38,209 bases of DNA from a bacterium (GTDB lineage: Bacteria > Zhuqueibacterota > QNDG01 > DTFT01): the NCBI GenBank assembly GCA_030372965.1, contig JAUCQC010000144.1, positions 1 through 38,209 on the forward strand, written 5' to 3'. Both the position numbers and the translations under genes were made by a program. Shown here in pieces: positions 27,701-38,209 of this stretch. The notes beneath the pieces are model-generated. The model worked only from the letters and a program-made list of their open reading frames with translations, was not told the origin of the DNA and searched no databases. Each line of letters starts with the position of its first letter. The first letter of the stretch is position 1.

Positions 27701-30700
27701 ATGACAGCTCGAAGAAAATCCTTTCCCTCCTTCCTCTTCGGCCTCCTCTGCTGGACCCTTGCGAGCCTCTACGCTCAAACCGAAACCATCCGGTTCGAAA
27801 AACTCTCCATTGAACACGGCCTCTCGCAGAGTTCCGTCACGTCGATCTGCCAGGACCGCAGGGGATTCCTCTGGTTCGGTACGTATGAGGGTATCAACCG
27901 GTACGACGGATACGAATTCAGGATTTTCCGCCATAACCCGGACGACCCGCACAGCCTCATCCAGAATGTCATCAAGGACATCCGGGAGGACCGGTCCGGC
28001 ACGCTCTGGATCGCCACCGACGGCGGTTTGGACAGGTACGACCGCCAGGCCGACCGTTTCATCCACTACGTCCACGACCCGGCCGATTCCACGAGCCTCA
28101 GCCACAACCGGGTGCGGTGCGTCTACGAAGATGCCGAAGGCAGTCTCTGGGCCGCCACGGACAACGGCCTGAACCGGTATGACCGCAAGTCGGACCGGTT
28201 CGTCCGGTATCGGCACAACCCGTCCGATCCCGCCAGCCTCTGCGACAACAAGGTCCGCGAAATCTATGAGGACCGTCAGGGAAATCTCTGGATCGGCACG
28301 GACGCGGGTCTCGAATGTCTCGACCGCAAAACGGGCCGCTTCCGTCATTACCGGAACGTGCCGGGCGATCCGAACAGCATCAGCGGGAACCACGTGATTT
28401 CCTTCGGTGAGGACAGAAGCGGATATCTGTGGATCGGCACATGGGACAAAGGGCTGAACCGTTTCGACCGCCGGACGGGAAAATTCAAGCGGTACATGGC
28501 CGATCCACGGAATCCGAAGAGCCTGCAGTACAACACGGTGAGGGCCATTTACGAGGACCGAGGCGGCACTCTGTGGATCGGCACCTACGGAGGGGGCCTC
28601 GAAAGGTATGACCGGGAAACCGACGGATTCACGCATTTCCGCTCGAATCCGGACGATCCGATCAGCCTCAGCAGCGACGCCGTCTGGTGCATCGCCGAAG
28701 ACGCGTCCGGGATTCTCTGGATCGGAACCGATTTCGGGGGCATTTCCAAGTACGACCGCAGAAAGAACCAGTTCGAATTTCACCGGAGCGGTTCCGGCGC
28801 GGCGGGCGGCCGGTACCGCAACGCGGTGAACGCGCTGTACGCCGATCCGGACGACCGCGGCCGCATCCTCTGGATCGGCACCTGGGGAGGCGGGCTCTGC
28901 CGCCTGGACCGCCGCACCGGAGAGCAGGTCTGCTTCAAGAACGACCCCTACGATCCCGGGAGCATCAGCAACGATGTGATCCGCTGCATCGAGAAGGACC
29001 GTGACGGCCGGCTTTGGATCGGGACCGACGTCGGGCTGAACCGTCTGGACCGCGGAACCGGACGGTTCGAGCGGTTCTACTGCGAACCGGGAAATCCCGC
29101 CACACTGGATTACGACAACATCTTCAGCCTCTGCGAGGACAGCAGGGGCAATCTGTGGGTCGGATCGTATTACGGGGGACTGAACCGCTTCGATCGGAAA
29201 ACACGGCGCTTCATCCGGTACCGGACGGATCCCGCGGACCCGGACGCATTCAACGACAACATCGTCTGGTGCATCAGGGAAGACAGGGCGGGCCGGATCT
29301 GGATCGGAACCGACGCCGGAGGGCTGAACCGGTTCGACCCCGCGACCGGGCGGTTCGCCCATTACCTGAGAATTCCGGGAAATCCAAACAGCATCAGCGA
29401 CAACAAAGTCCTCAGCATCCACGAGGACGCCGCCGGAATCCTCTGGCTGGGAACGCCGGGCGGCCTGAACCGGTTCGACCCCGCGGCCGGACGCTGGCGA
29501 CGGTACGGACGGCAGGACGGCCTTGCCTCGGACGCCGTGCAGTCCATCGCGGGGGACCCGGAAGGCTATCTCTGGATCGGCACCACCAAGGGACTGTCGC
29601 GCTTCGATCCGCGCAAGGACACATTCGTCAATTTCAGCTCAAACGACGGGCTCCAGGGAGACGAGTTCAACGTCAATGCCTGCGCGTCGGCCGTCACGGG
29701 GGAGATGTTCTTCGGCGGGATCAACGGCTTCAACGTGTTCTTCCCGAACCGGGTGAAACTCAACGGATTCATCCCGCCGGTCGTGCTGACCGACTTCCAG
29801 CTGTTCAACCGGTCCGTTCCGGTCGGTGAGCCGGTCGGCGGCCGGGTGATCCTGAAGCAGTCCATCACGGAAACCCCGGAGATCTCACTGTCGCACCGGC
29901 AGAACGATTTTTCCATTTACTACGCCGCCCTGTCCTTCTCCGCGCCGGACCGCAACGCCTACCGGTTCCGGCTGACGGGCATCGAGAAGGAGTGGAGCCC
30001 GGCCGGCCCGAGGCGCTTCGCCACGTACACGCGGCTGCCGCCGGGCAATTATGTCTTCGAGGTGAAGGGCTCCAACAACGACGGCGTCTGGAACGAGAAG
30101 GCCGTCTCCCTGAAAATCCGGATCCGGCCGCCGTTCTGGAAGACGGCCTGGTTCATCGTTCTGGCGTCGATGGCCGGCCTCGGCCTGGTGGCCGCGGGTT
30201 ACGTCAACCGCACCGGAAAGATCAAGGCGAGGAACCGGGAACTGGAATCGCGTGTCCGGGAAAGAACACGCCAGCTGGAGGAGGCCAACCGCGAACTCGA
30301 GGCCTTCACCTATTCGGTCTCGCACGACCTCAGGTCGCCCCTACGCGCCATGGACGGGTTCAGCCAGGCTGTTCTCGATGAATACGGGCCGAAACTCGAC
30401 GACCGGGGCGCGGATTATCTCCGGCGCATCCGGAGGGGAAGCCAGCAGCTGGGACGGCTGATCGATGACCTGCTGAAGCTGTCCCGGCTTGCCCGAAGCG
30501 AGATGAATTTCAAGGACATCGACATCGGCCGTCTGGCGGAGACGATCGCGGAGGAACTGCGGCGGTCGGAACCGTCCCGAAAAGCCGAATTCGTCATCGC
30601 CCGGGACGCGATCGTGCACGGGGACCCGAATCTGCTGAAAGTGATGCTCACCAACCTGCTCGGCAACGCCTGGAAATTCACGTCGAAACGTCCCGAAACC

Positions 30701-30994
30701 CGCATCGAGTTCGGCGTTCGGCACGGAGAAGGCGGCCGCGTGTTTTTCGTGCGGGACAACGGCATCGGCATGGACATGAAATACGCGGACAAGCTGTTCA
30801 AGCCGTTCCAGCGCCTGCAGTCGGAGTTCGAGGGAAGCGGCATCGGCCTGTCCACGGTCGCCCGGATCATCCGCCGGCACAACGGCCGCATCTGGGTCGA
30901 GGGGAAACCCGATGCGGGCGCCGTCTTCTATTTCACGCTGGACAATCCGGAACACGCCGGTGACGGGAACCCGGCCGGATCGCGTCCGGTTTGA
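27701..30994 (+). CDS. two-component sensor histidine kinase with 14-blade Reg_prop sensor
   Basis: A 1097-residue inner-membrane kinase. Signal peptide (1-25); 14 Reg_prop repeats (about 27-680, pattern EDRxGxLWIGTxxGGLNRYD), i.e. two seven-blade periplasmic propellers; a Y_Y_Y Ig-like domain (about 735-808: YRFRLTGIEKEWSPAGPRRF); one membrane helix (about 812-836); a coiled linker; HisKA with the phosphate acceptor His875 (YSVSHDLRSPLRAMDGF); HATPase with NAWKF, DNGIGMDMKY and GSGIGLSTV. There is no receiver or AraC domain, unlike Bacteroides hybrid sensors, so a separate response regulator must exist; none is adjacent. The kinase core resembles that of phytochrome-like kinases. Such sensors typically detect sugars or oligosaccharides. 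The ribosome site is weak. Confidence 0.94.
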   Translation: MTARRKSFPSFLFGLLCWTLASLYAQTETIRFEKLSIEHGLSQSSVTSICQDRRGFLWFGTYEGINRYDGYEFRIFRHNPDDPHSLIQNVIKDIREDRSGTLWIATDGGLDRYDRQADRFIHYVHDPADSTSLSHNRVRCVYEDAEGSLWAATDNGLNRYDRKSDRFVRYRHNPSDPASLCDNKVREIYEDRQGNLWIGTDAGLECLDRKTGRFRHYRNVPGDPNSISGNHVISFGEDRSGYLWIGTWDKGLNRFDRRTGKFKRYMADPRNPKSLQYNTVRAIYEDRGGTLWIGTYGGGLERYDRETDGFTHFRSNPDDPISLSSDAVWCIAEDASGILWIGTDFGGISKYDRRKNQFEFHRSGSGAAGGRYRNAVNALYADPDDRGRILWIGTWGGGLCRLDRRTGEQVCFKNDPYDPGSISNDVIRCIEKDRDGRLWIGTDVGLNRLDRGTGRFERFYCEPGNPATLDYDNIFSLCEDSRGNLWVGSYYGGLNRFDRKTRRFIRYRTDPADPDAFNDNIVWCIREDRAGRIWIGTDAGGLNRFDPATGRFAHYLRIPGNPNSISDNKVLSIHEDAAGILWLGTPGGLNRFDPAAGRWRRYGRQDGLASDAVQSIAGDPEGYLWIGTTKGLSRFDPRKDTFVNFSSNDGLQGDEFNVNACASAVTGEMFFGGINGFNVFFPNRVKLNGFIPPVVLTDFQLFNRSVPVGEPVGGRVILKQSITETPEISLSHRQNDFSIYYAALSFSAPDRNAYRFRLTGIEKEWSPAGPRRFATYTRLPPGNYVFEVKGSNNDGVWNEKAVSLKIRIRPPFWKTAWFIVLASMAGLGLVAAGYVNRTGKIKARNRELESRVRERTRQLEEANRELEAFTYSVSHDLRSPLRAMDGFSQAVLDEYGPKLDDRGADYLRRIRRGSQQLGRLIDDLLKLSRLARSEMNFKDIDIGRLAETIAEELRRSEPSRKAEFVIARDAIVHGDPNLLKVMLTNLLGNAWKFTSKRPETRIEFGVRHGEGGRVFFVRDNGIGMDMKYADKLFKPFQRLQSEFEGSGIGLSTVARIIRRHNGRIWVEGKPDAGAVFYFTLDNPEHAGDGNPAGSRPV

Positions 30995-31113: not shown

Positions 31114-33372
31114 ATGCGCCAAAAACACCTGCTCGTCCGAATCCTGATGCCGATCCTCATCCTTTCCGCGGTTCCGGCCGGACTGCCGTCCGAAACGCAG
31201 ACCCGCGAAATCCCGCTCGAGCGGGAGACGGGCCGGCGGATCCGGCGCATCCCGGCGTCCTTCCTGCTCCGCGGGCGCGAACGCGCCCTCATCGAGGGAC
31301 TGCGCCAGCATCCGGAATGGAGGATCGGGGCTCCGCTTCGCAAGACCGCCTGGTCCTTCTCCGTGGGATCCACGAGAGGGTGGTACGCCTACGATTTCAC
31401 GACTGAGAAGGATTACGTCGTAGCCTCGACCTGCCGAGCCGTGGGCGTCAATTGTTATGTCTTCGTGGAGAACGCCGTCTGGGGAACCCGCGTCACCCAG
31501 GCATCCGTCGATTCGATCCGGAACGTCTTCGACCTGCGGACCCCGGCCGATCCGAACCGGGGCATTTACCGGACGGACATCGACGTGTTCGGGTCCGTGC
31601 CGAACGTGGACGGCGACCCCCGCGTCATCATCCTGATTCTGGACATCCGGGATGATTTCACGACGACGGGCGGATACGTCGGGGGGTATTTCGACTCCAC
31701 CAACGAGTACGACATCTCGACCAGCAATCGCGCCGAAATGATCTACCTCGACGCCGACCCGGTGACCCTTTCCTCCGAAGACGGCATCCGTGAGTCCATG
31801 AGCATCACGGCGCACGAATTCCAGCACATGATACACTGGCAGCAGGACTCCGAGGAGATCAGCTTCGTCAAGGAAGGCTGTTCGCTCCAGGCCGAGATCG
31901 TCTGCGGTTATCCCATGTACGACCAGAATCATTACGTCAACGAAACAAACTACACGCTCCTGGGCTGGCGGTACGGGGAGGAGGGCGTGCACGGCGACTA
32001 TTCGCGCGCCGCGCGCTTCATGGCGTACGTCGGCGAGCAGGCGGGGACGGGCGTTTTCCGTCCCATGGTCGCCAGCGCCAAGACCGGCATCGCCGGCATC
32101 AACGCGGGTCTGACGGCCGTTTCCCTGGGCCGGGATTTCAACGCGCTCTTCCGGGACTGGCTCGTGGCCAATGTGCTCAACGACCGGTCCTTCGATCCCC
32201 GGTACGGATACGCGGATCCGGGGCTCATGAAACCCGTTCCGATTGTATACCCGTTCGAGGCCGTGGCGGACGCGCAGACCGTGGAGCCCCTTGCGGCGGT
32301 CTACCTCCGTTTCCCGATGGGACCGGAATTCCGCATCCGGTTCGAGACCGGCAGCCCGAATCTGCTGATCAAGGCGGTCGAAACCGGGGAGGCGGGACCC
32401 CGCGTGATCGACATCACGCCCGGCGTGGAGTACGGCGCGCCCGATCTCGATCCGGCGGCCGGAGAACGGACATTCATCTGCATGAACACCCATCAGACCC
32501 AGCAGGCCGTCGTGTCCTACGCCACCAACGGATCCGCGTCCGGAGCCGCGGAACTGAAGTGGGACATGACCGAGCCTTCGGGCTATCTGACGCTCTCCAT
32601 CCGGGACACGGTCTGCGTGACCTTCGACGCGGTGCCCGGGGCGAAACTGGATTCCGTTCGGGTGGCCCTGAGACGCGCGGGCCAGATCACGGGAGGCGTC
32701 TGGCGGCACACCGGCAACACCCGGCCCACACCGCTCGGCGAACCCCTGGCTTTCCCCGTGACCGCGTCCATCGCCACCGAAACTCCCGTGCCCTACCCGG
32801 TTCCATTCGAGAACTGGGCGACCATTGACCTGACGGCTTACGACATCGACGCGGGGTCGCCTTTCGCCGTGGCCTTCATCTGCCAGGGAGCGGGAACCGT
32901 GGGCCAGCGGGTCATGGTCACGGAGCAGAAGCGGACGGGATCGGACCACAGCCTGACCTGGATGAACGACCCCGGGGGATCCAGTCCGCCCAACTGGTAT
33001 TCCGTGGGGCCGCAGCAGGATTCGGTTTTCGTCTACCTGATCCGGGCTTATGTGAGCATGACCTCCGGCGCGGACGGCCCGGCCGGGCTCCCGGCCGCGT
33101 TCTCCCTGTCTCCGAACTATCCCAATCCCTTCAATCCCTACACCCGTTTCTCGTTCCGCCTGGCCGTCCCGTCGCGTGTCTCGGCGGAGGTCTGGAACCT
33201 GATGGGACATCGCGTGGCCGCTCTCGCGGACAGGACCTTCCCGGCCGGTGAGCACGCGCTCGCGTGGGACGGCATGGGTCAAAACGGCCTCCCCGCGCCG
33301 TCAGGCGTGTACCTGATCCGACTGCAGGCGGGCGGGAACGCGACGGTTCGGAAAATGGTGCTGGAGCGGTAG
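31114..33372 (+). CDS. secreted M30-like zinc metalloprotease with T9SS-type sorting domain
   Basis: A 752-residue exported protease. Signal peptide (about 1-25); a pro- or N-terminal region to about 150; a catalytic domain with the zinc site TAHEFQHMIHW (His234, Glu235, His238) and a downstream FVKEGCS (Glu254) that fits the third ligand of hyicolysin-like M30 peptidases (gluzincins). A beta-rich C-terminal part (about 400-655) follows, then the FlgD-like sorting module (LSPNYPNPFNPYTRFSFRLA ... GVYLIRLQAGGNA ... KMVLER, about 664-752). All zinc ligands are present, so it should be active. ATG 31114 with AAGGAG upstream. It shares a bidirectional terminator with a convergent lipoprotein serpin gene. 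M30 rather than another HExxH gluzincin family is a judgement by eye. Confidence 0.87.
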   Translation: MRQKHLLVRILMPILILSAVPAGLPSETQTREIPLERETGRRIRRIPASFLLRGRERALIEGLRQHPEWRIGAPLRKTAWSFSVGSTRGWYAYDFTTEKDYVVASTCRAVGVNCYVFVENAVWGTRVTQASVDSIRNVFDLRTPADPNRGIYRTDIDVFGSVPNVDGDPRVIILILDIRDDFTTTGGYVGGYFDSTNEYDISTSNRAEMIYLDADPVTLSSEDGIRESMSITAHEFQHMIHWQQDSEEISFVKEGCSLQAEIVCGYPMYDQNHYVNETNYTLLGWRYGEEGVHGDYSRAARFMAYVGEQAGTGVFRPMVASAKTGIAGINAGLTAVSLGRDFNALFRDWLVANVLNDRSFDPRYGYADPGLMKPVPIVYPFEAVADAQTVEPLAAVYLRFPMGPEFRIRFETGSPNLLIKAVETGEAGPRVIDITPGVEYGAPDLDPAAGERTFICMNTHQTQQAVVSYATNGSASGAAELKWDMTEPSGYLTLSIRDTVCVTFDAVPGAKLDSVRVALRRAGQITGGVWRHTGNTRPTPLGEPLAFPVTASIATETPVPYPVPFENWATIDLTAYDIDAGSPFAVAFICQGAGTVGQRVMVTEQKRTGSDHSLTWMNDPGGSSPPNWYSVGPQQDSVFVYLIRAYVSMTSGADGPAGLPAAFSLSPNYPNPFNPYTRFSFRLAVPSRVSAEVWNLMGHRVAALADRTFPAGEHALAWDGMGQNGLPAPSGVYLIRLQAGGNATVRKMVLER

Positions 33373-33397
33373 GGCCGGCGGGCACAATGGAATGAAA

Positions 33398-33430
33398 AAG
33401 AGGCTCCGGATCGGATTTCCGGAGCCTCTT
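33398..33430. terminator. bidirectional terminator, metalloprotease and serpin genes
   Basis: AAGAGGCTCCGGA (33398-33410) and TCCGGAGCCTCTT (33418-33430) form a 13-bp perfect stem with a 7-base loop. T-runs follow on plus (CGTTTT) and minus (TTTTT) strands. It lies 25 bases after the protease stop and 23 before the serpin stop. Confidence 0.9.
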
Positions 33431-33453
33431 CGTTTTCGGTCCCGCAGGAAGGA

Positions 33454-34680
33454 TCACTGCGTCAGGGTTTCGATTCTCCCCATGAACAGCATCGTCCCGG
33501 ACGTCTTGTCGTAGATCGCGAAGGCGAAGGGCCGGTCGAAGCGAATCGTGCCTTCGTCCGGTTCCACGGAAGTCTCCCGGATCTCCACGACCGTCACGGC
33601 CGCGGCTTCCGTTCCCTTCTCGTCCACTTCGACGAACGATTTGTGATAAACATCGCTGATATAGGGACCGACGCTTCCGGTGATCCGGCTGAAATCGGCC
33701 CTGCCGTCGAAAGCGGCGGCCATTCCCAGGGCCTTCAGCGCGTCGCTCAGCGTGATTTTGTACTCGACCTTGAACTTCGGGAGATACAGGTTCATTTCCC
33801 GTTTGACGAAGTTCCCTCTCCATCCCCGCCACGCGGTTTCCGTCCATCCCCGGATGAAATCGTCCGTGGAGCGCCCCTCCTCCGGAAGGAACAGGGCCAT
33901 GGCGAAGCGGCCGTTGCCGTACGGCAGTTCCACGGCGCGGAAATCCGATGTCCGGAAATATCCGATCTCCGACTTCTGCGACATCATCCTGCAGGGCAGG
34001 GCGGACCCGCCGGCGGGATAAAAATATTCGTCCCGCGTGGTCTTCGGATCGAAGGCGGTCACCCAGGTTCCCTTGAAATAAACCGCATTGATCAGAAACA
34101 TCACCGTCATCGGATCGATGTCACCGATCATCTCGTCGATGCGGCCGTGCGTCTTGTCCGAAATCCAGCCGTTGATGACATCCGGCGCGGCCGGGTCGGA
34201 GAAGTCCAGCTCCCGGACCGCCGCGTCGAAGCACTGCCGGTTCACATCGACGAAGGCGGGCAGAACCGGATAGCCCATCCGGTACCAGATGGAATTCGCG
34301 ATTTCCATGACCGTTTCAGGATCCGCCGCCGGCAGAAGGTCGAGGAGGCCCCGATAGGAGGCGTTGACCTCGTCCTGGGACATGCCCTCGAACCCGAGGA
34401 CCGAGCGCATGTCCGCCTCGGTCCCGCCGGCTGCGCCGTTCAGAGTCATGCCCAGGGCCATCGAAACCGAGAAGGGCGAGACGAAGACGTTCTTCACGCC
34501 CTCCTCCCTGCACACTTCGGCGAACAGATTGAAGCCGAAAGCGTTGGAGGCCTCGGACACGCGTTTTTCCAGGGCGGTCAATTCCCGGGCCGGCTGCGGA
34601 TCGGCGTTCCCGATCGTGGACAGGTCCCGGTCGCAGGACAAGACCATGAGAGCGGACGCGAATAACAGGGTTTTTCTCAT
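33454..34680 (-). CDS. lipoprotein serpin (serine/cysteine protease inhibitor)
   Basis: A 408-residue serpin on a lipid anchor: signal peptide with lipobox (LMVLSC, Cys15), then the full serpin fold (NLFAEVCREEGVKNVFVSPF, ALGMTLNGAAGGTEADM, NGWISDKTHGRIDEMI, FLINAVYFKGTWVTAFD, LPKFKVEYKITLSDALKALG, FDRPFAFAIYDKTSGTMLFMG). The hinge EKGTEAAAVT (354-363) has the small residues required for loop insertion, so it is probably inhibitory. By alignment to alpha-1-antitrypsin the scissile bond would be near Thr370-Ser371, but the loop is about three residues longer and the P1 residue is uncertain. The start at 34680 follows GGAGG; an ATG five codons earlier lacks support. Last gene of the sigma-54 activator operon. 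It is predicted to sit in the periplasm or on the cell surface. Confidence 0.95.
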   Translation of the reverse strand: MRKTLLFASALMVLSCDRDLSTIGNADPQPARELTALEKRVSEASNAFGFNLFAEVCREEGVKNVFVSPFSVSMALGMTLNGAAGGTEADMRSVLGFEGMSQDEVNASYRGLLDLLPAADPETVMEIANSIWYRMGYPVLPAFVDVNRQCFDAAVRELDFSDPAAPDVINGWISDKTHGRIDEMIGDIDPMTVMFLINAVYFKGTWVTAFDPKTTRDEYFYPAGGSALPCRMMSQKSEIGYFRTSDFRAVELPYGNGRFAMALFLPEEGRSTDDFIRGWTETAWRGWRGNFVKREMNLYLPKFKVEYKITLSDALKALGMAAAFDGRADFSRITGSVGPYISDVYHKSFVEVDEKGTEAAAVTVVEIRETSVEPDEGTIRFDRPFAFAIYDKTSGTMLFMGRIETLTQ

Positions 34681-34713: not shown

Positions 34714-35277
34714 TCATGAAATCCATATCATCACGGACCGGCTCACGCCCCATTCCCCGTCTTTTTTCTTCAGATGGATCAAAGATCCGTAAGCGGCCAG
34801 AGGAGCCCAGTACACGGACCCGTAAACCAGCGCCTCGGTCCCGTCCCGGTTGAAACCCGCGAGCGACACCGTGACCGCGCCGCAGGACCCGGGCACGGTC
34901 CGCTCCCAATCCCAGGACGACCGCGCGTCCAGAAACACGATGCTCCTTCCCGGACACCGGAAACCCCTGATCGAAACCCGGTTCCGGTTCCGTCTCTGAA
35001 AGCTGTTCCAAGTATCAACCGACAGGCCCGTCAGGCGCTCCCGGATCAATTCGCCGTAGGCTTCGGTCCTGCCGCCCGGTCCGATCGCCGTGCTGTCCAC
35101 CATCGCCACGACCGGGCAGGGCATGAATGTCGTGTCTCCGAGAAGCGCCCGGTACACCGCGAAATCGGACTCCAGTCCGGCGCCCCTGGACGGTGAAAGA
35201 ATCGATCCATCACGCTCACACCCGGCGATTCCGAGGAGAACGGAGAGGACCGCAAGTGCCACGACCGTTCGTCTCAT
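34714..35277 (-). CDS. hypothetical lipoprotein
   Basis: A 187-residue lipoprotein with a clean lipobox (LLGIAGC, Cys20). The mature part has no recognised family. Seen in it: a YRALLGDTTFMPCPVVAMVD stretch, a WNSFQRRNR segment, CPGRSIVFLDARSSWDWE, and a C-terminal beta-rich end (LIHLKKKDGEWGVSRSVMIW), which resembles small domains ending with a 'kkkdGeWkv' hairpin as in NTF2-like or uncharacterised lipoproteins. Two further cysteines could form a disulphide. ATG 35277 has AGGAGG upstream. 33 bases before the serpin gene and 22 after the barrel gene, so one operon. Confidence 0.78.
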   Translation of the reverse strand: MRRTVVALAVLSVLLGIAGCERDGSILSPSRGAGLESDFAVYRALLGDTTFMPCPVVAMVDSTAIGPGGRTEAYGELIRERLTGLSVDTWNSFQRRNRNRVSIRGFRCPGRSIVFLDARSSWDWERTVPGSCGAVTVSLAGFNRDGTEALVYGSVYWAPLAAYGSLIHLKKKDGEWGVSRSVMIWIS

Positions 35278-35299: not shown

Positions 35300-36361
35300 T
35301 CACCACTCCCGCGTCAGTCCCAGCGAAACGATCGTCTTGCGGTAGTACAAGGCCCGGATCGGCGATTCGTTCCTGTACCGCGCGGCCCTCAGCCGGCCGG
35401 TCCATCCGTTTCCGAACCGGCGGGAGAGATCCACCAGGGCCTGGCTGTTGGTTTCGTCCTCCGCGTCCGGACGGACGCGAATGAGCGCGGCCAGACCGTC
35501 GGCGTACGTCTTCTTCCGATGCGTCCAGAACGCGCGGACATTGAGGCCCCAGGGCAGCAGTTTGCCGAAACCGAATTCGAGAAAAGGATCCCGGTATGAA
35601 TAGCCGAAGCTGTTGGACCGGTTTCCCTGCAGGGTAAACCGGCACGTCCACAGGCCGTACCGGTAGGCTTCGATCGAAGCGGCTGTCTCCCAGTTCCGGT
35701 CCCTCTGGCGTTCGTCCAGAAACCGCCACTCCGGTTCGGGTGTTTCCCGCCCGACGCGCCCGACCGCGCGCCTCTCGAATTCCAGGGACCGGGAGCACGC
35801 CCGGAGCGACCACTTGACGGACGGCAGGGGCGAGGATTCCAGGGCCGCGCTCCATTCAGAGGAGCGGAAATCGAAGGCGCTGGACGGCGTGTAGTCGAAG
35901 CCGCCCGCCGACCATCCGAGCCGCATCACCGCGCGGCCGAAGAGGTTCATTCGGACATAAGGCGACGCGTTCCAGGCCGCGTATCCCCGGCCGTCCCGCA
36001 GGAATGTCTTGGTTCTGCCGCGCAATTCCGCCCCGGCCGAAAACGCCTTCCGGGTTCCGGTCTCCGCCGAAAGGCAGGCCGCATGCACGTGCCGGGTCTC
36101 GGACGGATGGGCCGAGTACACGTCCGCGCCCCCCGAGTAATCCGCGGAGAGGGCCAGGCGGCCGGCCGGCCGGACACGGCCCCCGATCTCCGCCCACACA
36201 CGGCCGATCCGGTCCGGAACCGCGGCGCTGTCCGATTCGAAGACATTGGAGTCGCTGAAAACCGCGATCGAAATCCGCGCCGCGCCCTGTCCGCCCGACG
36301 CGGGCGGAATCGTCAGGGCGAGCCACGCCGGGATGAAAATGAAGGCGGGAAGCGGTTTCAT
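35300..36361 (-). CDS. outer-membrane beta-barrel protein (hypothetical)
   Basis: A 353-residue exported protein: signal peptide (about 1-24, PPASGGQGA), then amphipathic strands throughout (RISIAVFSDSNVFE, RLALSADYSGGADVYS, VKWSLRACSRSLEF, WTCRFTLQGNRSNSFGYSYR, VRAFWTHRKKTY) and a terminal TIVSLGLTREW with Trp at the end, the C-terminal sorting signal of outer-membrane barrels. About 16 strands are plausible. No named family. 15 bases after the coiled-coil gene, 22 before the lipoprotein gene. The start at 36361 has no clear ribosome site and probably depends on coupling. It may be the membrane platform of this operon. Confidence 0.78.
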   Translation of the reverse strand: MKPLPAFIFIPAWLALTIPPASGGQGAARISIAVFSDSNVFESDSAAVPDRIGRVWAEIGGRVRPAGRLALSADYSGGADVYSAHPSETRHVHAACLSAETGTRKAFSAGAELRGRTKTFLRDGRGYAAWNASPYVRMNLFGRAVMRLGWSAGGFDYTPSSAFDFRSSEWSAALESSPLPSVKWSLRACSRSLEFERRAVGRVGRETPEPEWRFLDERQRDRNWETAASIEAYRYGLWTCRFTLQGNRSNSFGYSYRDPFLEFGFGKLLPWGLNVRAFWTHRKKTYADGLAALIRVRPDAEDETNSQALVDLSRRFGNGWTGRLRAARYRNESPIRALYYRKTIVSLGLTREW

Positions 36362-36376: not shown

Positions 36377-37381
36377 TCAGTCCGCGGCTTCCGCGGCCCT
36401 TTTCAGGAACCATCGGGCCCTGGCCGAGAGGCTGTCCGCGCGCGCCGCCAGCCTGCGACTGTATTTCTCCAGCCGTTCGATGCGGGAGTTCAGGTCGGCG
36501 GGTTCGCTTTCCGCGCCGGCCCCTTCCGCGATCCAGCCGGACGGCAGTTCCGGACCCGTCCCTTCCGCGGGCGGCGGACCGATAGTCGTTCCGATCGGAT
36601 TCCCGCGGTCGTCAAAGGTTTCCTTGTCTCCGGCCGGCTGGCCGTACTCCATGCGCCGGCCCACAAGTTCATCCTGCTCGTTGAACAGCGCGAACTCCCG
36701 CGACAGTTCGGCCACGTTCCGGCGCACATCCCTTTCCTCGCGGAGCGACCGGATGCGTCCGTTGATTCTCCGCATTTCGTCCCGGGTGGACTCGGCCTCG
36801 TCCTGAAGCAGGTTCGCTTTCAGGCGGATGTCCTCCGGGCTGTTCCACGGCTGAAGCAGCACCGGATCCGTCTGCCGGACCGGCGCGGGTCCGGCCGACA
36901 GGCGCGATTCCCACGCCGTTTTCCGGTTCAGCAGATCCTGCAGAACCGCCGCCAGCTCAACCTTCCGCCTGCTGTCCGCGTTTTCCGCCTCCTCCCGGAT
37001 TCCTATGAGCGCCGCCTGAATCGCGTCGATCAACCGGCCCACGGTTACATCCCGCCTCTTCCGGCAGTCATCGAGATCTTTTCTCAGCCGGTTCATCTCC
37101 GCGTCCAGCCGCTGGGAGGTCTGGAGCCATTTCTCCATCTGCCTGTGCTCCTTGGGGCTGAGCATCTCCTTCGAACGGAGCATGTCCATCTGAGCGGCAA
37201 CCGCTTCGCCGTCCTTCTGAATCCGGCTCCGGACGGACTGCAGTGAATCCAACGATTTTTCAATCGAAAGGCTCAGTTTTTCGAGGGATTCCAGGTCATC
37301 CGTGCCGGAAAAACCGGACGCGTTCAGGGGGTTCAACCCATGCAGAAAAAGGAGGAAAACGATGGAATGAATCGTCTTCAT
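36377..37381 (-). CDS. secreted coiled-coil protein
   Basis: A 334-residue exported protein: signal peptide (about 1-22, NPLNASG), then long coiled-coil segments (about 27-160 and 180-245; heptad-rich [36 protein letters not shown]). A low-complexity Gly/Pro/Glu linker (about 245-290, [15 protein letters not shown]) and a final coiled coil (292-325, [20 protein letters not shown]) follow. No family is recognised; the layout resembles periplasmic spacer proteins. Its ATG overlaps the stop of the sigma-54 activator gene by 4 bases (ATGA), so the two are translationally coupled. A protein anchored or bridging between barrel and inner membrane is inference. Confidence 0.82.
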
Positions 37382-38209
37382 GGCGGGCCCGATCCGGGAC
37401 TAATCCCATATTTTTCAAGTTTATAGTAGAGCGCGCTTTCCTTGATGTTCAGCAGTTTGGCCGCTCTGGCCTTGACGCCGCCGGACAGGCTCATGGCTTT
37501 TTCAAGCAGCCGTCTCTCAACCGCTTCCAGCGTGGCGTCCAGATCCATGCCGTCCTTCGCAACATCCATGCCTTCAAGTCCGGACGAGAGAAAAGAAAGA
37601 TTCTCCGATCCGATCCGATTGTCATCCGAAAGGACCAGCGCCCGTTCCAGAACATTCTCCAGTTCACGCACATTGCCGGGCCAGTCATAGGATTCGAGAA
37701 TGCGGAGGCCATCCTCGGAGAGGGTGACTCCGGGCTTCCGCATCTGCGAGGACATCCTGCGGATGAAATGATCGGCCAGAAGCCGTATGTCCTCCCGCCG
37801 TTCCCGTAGCGGCGGAAGCCGCACCGGCAGTATGTGGAGCCGGTAATACAGGTCCTCGCGGAAGCGTCCCGCCTTCACCTCGGCCTGCAGGTCCCGGTGG
37901 GTGGCGGCGATGATGCGCACGTCGACGCGGATCGTCTCCTCCCCGCCCACCCGCTCGAATTCGCGCTCCTGCAGGACGCGGAGCAGTTTGACCTGGGTGG
38001 AGGGCGTGATGTCGCCGATCTCGTCCAGGAAAAGCGTGCCCCCGTCGGCGAGCTCGAACCGTCCCCGTTTCTGGCGGATCGCGCCCGTGAACGCGCCTTT
38101 CTCGTGGCCGAACAGCTCGCTTTCGAGCAGCGTCTCCGGCAGGGCGGCACAGTTGATGGCGATGAAGGGCTTGTCGCGCCGCGGCGAGTTCGCGTGGATG
38201 TGGCGGGCC
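37378..38209 (-). CDS. sigma-54 dependent activator, NtrC/Fis family (5' truncated)
   Basis: The last 276 residues of an enhancer-binding activator that opens sigma-54 promoters by ATP hydrolysis. The gene runs off the right edge, so the Walker A motif and any receiver or sensor domain are missing. Seen: [20 protein letters not shown], the sigma-54 contact loop GAFTGA, Walker [12 protein letters not shown], the sensor and arginine-finger region ([17 protein letters not shown], then [20 protein letters not shown]), and a C-terminal Fis-type helix-turn-helix ([20 protein letters not shown], then [11 protein letters not shown]). All motifs in the visible part are intact, so it is cut only by the window. 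It is the upstream gene of the coiled-coil/barrel/lipoprotein/serpin operon and overlaps the next gene by 4 bases. Whether it is a response regulator cannot be told. Confidence 0.93.

Follow-up and report, generated by a model that had tools for sequence, protein, structure and literature searches.

Closest described systems

The established targets of serpins are serine and cysteine proteases, which they trap by loop insertion; trapping of a metalloprotease by a serpin is, to our knowledge, not known. The serpin described here is encoded in a contig of the phylum Zhuqueibacterota (JAUCQC010000144.1; the whole analyzed stretch of 38,209 nucleotides is called the window below). Among solved structures, the serpin best matches Tannerella forsythia miropin (PDB 5ncs, E=1.3e-80), likewise from a T9SS organism, and the hinge and loop of the two proteins are nearly identical (GTEAAAVTAVEMVKTSS versus GTEAAAVTVVEIRETSV). 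However, miropin belongs to another phylum and another operon context, and its Lys before T-S is a Glu in the window serpin, which has an Arg one residue earlier. Miropin has been suggested to be a guard against secreted serine proteases (PMC4404884).

The genes in the same run as the serpin resemble sigma-54 systems of the ZraPSR/AtoSC type, with an NtrC-type regulator and a kinase closest to the AtoS and ZraS models. The product of the helper gene in the ZraPSR operon, ZraP, is exported and may be likened to the exported operon gene found here. Nevertheless, the kinase scores far under the equivalog cut-offs, the coiled-coil and barrel proteins belong to unnamed families, and an inhibitor cargo is present. 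In relatives, the cargo position can be taken by a lipoprotein with domains of two other described inhibitors, BsuPI/IPI of Bacillus subtilis (PDB 3isy) and emfourin, the inhibitor of protealysin. The difference is that both domains are fused in one lipoprotein, and no BsuPI was found in the window's genome. BsuPI was reported as a subtilisin inhibitor, a status that has been debated (PMC3901451), while emfourin is an inhibitor of two M4 metalloproteases, protealysin and thermolysin (PMC9505478).

A secreted protease and a serpin converging on one hairpin

The protease gene (31114 to 33372, plus strand) codes for 752 aa with a signal-peptide-like N-terminus. Its HEFQH zinc-binding motif (31813 to 31827) aligns with HEYQH of lugdulysin (M30, PDB 7bb8; E=1.2e-16), and the catalytic domain and HExxH region can be aligned to this enzyme across 270 residues; the T9SS tail and the long C-terminal part set the window protease apart from it. 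We call the protease M30-like rather than M30 because, in spite of the HExxH and the lugdulysin match, its score against Pfam M30 (PF10460) was 18.7 bits, under the cut-off of 25.8. FlgD_ig and the T9SS type A sorting domain (TIGR04183; residues 669 to 750, positions 33118 to 33363) were both above their cut-offs in the profile search, the latter with 25.6 bits versus 23, and the genome codes for PorU (830 bits), as expected for a T9SS cargo. Directly upstream, on the same strand (27701 to 30994), there is a large hybrid sensor kinase with 12 propeller repeats, Y_Y_Y, HisKA and HATPase domains, which may be related to the control of the protease. M30-like relatives were detected in 25 of the 82 phylum genomes. 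Full-length orthologues outside the genus appeared only in two genomes of a distant family of the phylum (G079:C120 and G081:C6; 45 to 47%) and in none of the nearer kin, a distribution that would fit transfer or loss.

The protease and the serpin (33454 to 34680, minus strand) converge on a single strong hairpin (33398 to 33430) that folding predicts to be a terminator for both genes and that is conserved in the sister locus L030. Its stem has 13 bp, with -28 and -26 kcal/mol on the two strands (z of -4.4 and -4.9). The initial annotation had described an M30-like protease and an inhibitory-type serpin meeting at one bidirectional terminator, and open reading frames, domains and hairpin all agree with it. 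Only the direction of the T-run had to be reversed, since it favors the serpin strand (T5) and not the protease strand (T4). The accompanying statement that serpins are rare in bacteria does not apply to this phylum, where 53 of 82 genomes carry one.

The serpin: fold, anchor and reactive loop

The serpin, of 408 aa, is encoded by the last gene of an operon run and is single copy in the genome. Its match to Pfam PF00079 (366 bits, cut-off 27) goes from residue 44 to 403 and covers the whole fold. The ATG at 34680, with a GGAGG 8 nt upstream, seems a likelier start than 34695. The signal peptide (MRKTLLFASALMVLSC) carries the lipobox VLSC (34633 to 34644), characteristic of lipoproteins, with a predicted lipidated Cys16 and a mature N-terminus after VLS. 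The lipid Cys or lipoprotein-type start is kept in nearly all of 51 aligned serpins of relatives. Incidentally, the serpins of L133 and L134 (G080 and G081, one genus) have an ordinary signal peptide without lipobox. It had been proposed that a lipid-anchored serpin serves self-protection at the envelope; the anchor and the envelope location are supported, a pairing with the neighboring protease is not (see below). Among 42 serpins, 15 have the motif C-x-R-D at the lipid Cys, versus 3 of 94 other candidate lipoproteins; the motif could be an export signal or, equally, a mark of shared descent. The 187-aa lipoprotein next to the serpin (34714 to 35277) likewise carries it.

The hinge and reactive center loop (EKGTEAAAVTVVEIRETSVEPDEGTIRF, 33538 to 33621, minus strand) were located by the sequence, the PDB match and the alignment. 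The hinge (P17 to P8, EKGTEAAAVT) fits the inhibitory pattern ExGTEAAA(A/V)T with its small residues, which is conserved in practically all of the 51 aligned serpins. By sequence, the window serpin is of the inhibitory type. The canonical count gives Thr370 (in T-S) as the candidate P1, with Arg368 as the alternative.

A probable two-component operon ended by the serpin

The serpin closes a run of genes on the minus strand separated by 4-bp overlaps or gaps of 15 to 34 bp. Upstream of it come a predicted lipoprotein of 187 aa (34714 to 35277; GIAGC-ERD, without a Pfam match), an outer-membrane-barrel-like protein of 353 aa (35300 to 36361), an exported coiled-coil protein of 334 aa (36377 to 37381) and the C-terminal part of an NtrC-type sigma-54 activator (37378 to 38209), cut by the contig end, as judged from its sequence and the comparison with the sister locus L030, which has the same run. 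The barrel profile had no match among PDB sequences, neither barrel nor coiled coil is named in NCBIfam (a TIGR03016 match was far under the cut-off), and the predicted structures were unusable (pLDDT 27 in two rows for the barrel, 39 for the 187-aa lipoprotein), so that the identities given to these proteins are putative and derived from sequence comparison.

The kinase orthologue of the same genome lies at the end of another contig, C201 (388 bits, versus 127 for the next best paralogue), in the order C69 dipeptidase, kinase and, directly after it, the N-terminal part of the NtrC gene. In the sister locus both NtrC parts are in one reading frame, the first agreeing with C201 and the second with the window. 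The outermost ends of both contigs each disagree with this intact NtrC, suggesting that the gene was split by breaks of the assembly at the conserved GAFTGA region. The last ca. 110 bases of the window (38100 to 38209) and positions 1 to 60 of C201 (L179, in G000) look chimeric around the GAFTGA motif, and the end of C201 translates to LLYTSPSPRDS, resembling sequencing-adapter read-through. The components of an NtrC-type two-component system are there, namely receiver and kinase on C201, the GAFTGA sigma-54 interaction domain and a sigma-54 gene in the genome (receiver and GAFTGA partly judged in a relative). The window's own operon, in which the genes abut, yielded no sigma-54 site scoring at least 10/11.

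This two-component operon is a stronger context for the serpin than the protease neighbor. In the open-licence literature searched, we saw no report of an operon like this one, which appears to be a new context for a known kind of protein.

The module across relatives

Neighbor families were taken around 48 serpin loci and then refined with profiles across the 82 phylum genomes. Outside the genus, barrel and coiled-coil homologues are about 20 to 32% identical. The run recurs with them in other families, where its order is either NtrC-serpin-coil-barrel or NtrC-coil-barrel-cargo-serpin. The barrel family was present in 51 of the 82 genomes (one weak match left out), almost always as a single copy, versus 8 of 208 genomes outside the phylum. 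Among the 33 genomes with both genes, serpin and barrel gene are no more than 4 kb apart in 15, belonging to 12 families (p about 3e-32 in a rough random-placement estimate that ignores relatedness). Because the internal order varies, this linkage is not one frozen block. In the serpin tree, the linked serpins are scattered, the linked state requires 10 changes, at least 3 of them forced, and clustering is only moderate. Outside the phylum, G082 has an intact kinase-NtrC-coil-barrel-serpin run, and three further genomes (L197, L198 and L199) have the core kinase-NtrC-coil-barrel run without serpin.

There are also barrel modules without serpin and serpins without module. At the scale of whole genomes, the co-occurrence of serpin and barrel was no better than chance (odds ratio 1.0), and about 20 genomes carry the core module without any inhibitor.

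Other proteins recur in these neighborhoods. DUF3160 proteins, some of them T9SS-tailed, are found beside serpins or directly after the barrel gene (L093, L102, L103, L104, L109, L118 and L161), and VIT-VWA proteins, with inter-alpha-trypsin-like domains, adjoin serpins at L128, L133, L134 and L093. A T9SS-tail protein adjoining the serpin of L132 (7324 to 8550) has a CSCVPP start that recalls TIMP/NTR domains; Pfam recognizes only its tail.

Varied cargo and sigma-54 sites

In many relatives, the gene after the barrel codes for a lipoprotein family (f4) of which nearly all members are lipoprotein-like. BsuPI was detected in 15 of its 19 members and emfourin in 10. The family profile matches the solved B. 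subtilis inhibitor (PDB 3isy, E=2.8e-9); its representative reaches 61.5 bits for BsuPI (cut-off 22.9) and, for emfourin, 23.7 versus a Pfam cut-off of 27, the best member having E=1.5e-8. The phylum has 24 BsuPI genes; 17 of these come directly after the barrel gene, all of them in three families. Lipoprotein f4 and serpin are found together within the module in L106, L107 and L128, and away from it in L118, L120 and L121. The slot also holds cargo that is not inhibitor-like: a barrel-like protein of 600 aa, DUF2330, DUF6174 and PAP2.

Strong sigma-54 (-24/-12) sites are located upstream of f4 in 13 of 15 cases versus 11 of 308 other genes. Sites were detected upstream of f21-(f6)-serpin units (L102, L103 and L125), of a serpin (L099), of f4-serpin pairs (L120 and L121), and also of the serpin-holding units of L106 and L107. 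The weight matrix used for such sites had been built from those of f4 and f21, which leaves only its remaining sites as independent.

Function of the module and alternative explanations

With a probability of about 60%, the serpin is the envelope-anchored, inhibitory-type cargo of a two-component, sigma-54-linked anti-protease operon in which the inhibitor cargo is exchangeable. The operon order is sensor kinase, NtrC-type sigma-54 activator, exported coiled coil, barrel-like protein and then inhibitor cargo. Envelope or proteolytic stress, sensed as a periplasmic signal, would activate the kinase, and the phosphorylated NtrC with sigma-54 would raise the serpin along with barrel and coiled coil. 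The serpin, at the cell surface or the periplasmic face, might then use loop insertion to trap serine or cysteine proteases of the cell itself or of foreign origin. In relatives, the BsuPI-emfourin lipoprotein fills or shares the serpin slot, which would give broad protection against several protease classes. All this suggests a regulated cell-surface shield against proteolysis; caution is called for mainly because some of the cargo has no inhibitor domain and because serpin and barrel do not occur together beyond chance across whole genomes. The wider interpretation, a regulated envelope anti-protease response driven by sigma-54 and a two-component operon, in which exchangeable surface lipoprotein inhibitors (serpin, BsuPI-emfourin) guard free-living bacteria from foreign or own secreted proteases, is tentative and, in our judgment, falls somewhat short of even odds.

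The module could serve another role, such as envelope build-up, surface polymer or metal stress, as in ZraPSR-like systems, with the serpin as a frequent hitchhiker in a permissive locus for surface proteins. The inhibitor-free core modules, the mixed cargo, the odds ratio of 1.0 and the fact that AtoS and ZraS are the nearest named kinase models are all in its favor, but two unrelated inhibitor-type families share the slot, one with strong sigma-54 promoters, and the serpin and BsuPI lipoprotein families pair outside the module too, so that we regard this explanation as rather unlikely. A role of the serpin in guarding or tuning a secreted cysteine protease of the cell itself, e.g., PorU, which had been put forward as a target, or a gingipain-like C25 protease, looks improbable. 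The genome does contain, besides PorU, one further C25-like protein and more than 100 T9SS-tail proteins; serpin and PorU would share the outer-envelope location, and the loop Arg (P3 by count) is a possible bait. Yet no C25 family recurs beside the 48 serpin loci, and serpin does not track PorU (34 versus 49 of 49 high-quality phylum genomes), although this comparison is uninformative because PorU is universal in the phylum.

The least probable explanation is that the two neighbors work together, the serpin being the protease's own guard. Their convergence and shared terminator are seen in each of the two genomes of the genus (the window and its sister, L030/G010; 2/2), but the adjacency, whose synteny in relatives had been suggested as a check, goes no further than that. 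The two genes are on different contigs in all of the 15 other phylum genomes with both, among them G081 with its protease orthologue, and no serpin was found in G079, the other genome with a full-length orthologue. Across phylum genomes, the presence of one does not correlate with that of the other (odds ratio 1.24, p=0.80), and the genes are convergent, not co-transcribed. The earlier reservation that a metalloprotease is an unlikely serpin target also stands. On linkage and co-occurrence we rejected the pairing: the position of the serpin beside a secreted protease is a local accident, and the M30-like protease is probably a bystander outside the serpin system.

Implications for prokaryotic serpins

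What most prokaryotic serpins do physiologically was called enigmatic in the main phylogeny of the family (PMC8233489). The conserved operon supplies a regulator, a likely type of trigger, co-expressed partners and a cell compartment, which makes the role of the serpin testable. If the anti-protease reading is true, bacteria would have, at their surface, a protection from proteases that can be switched on and that combines inhibitors of unrelated folds.
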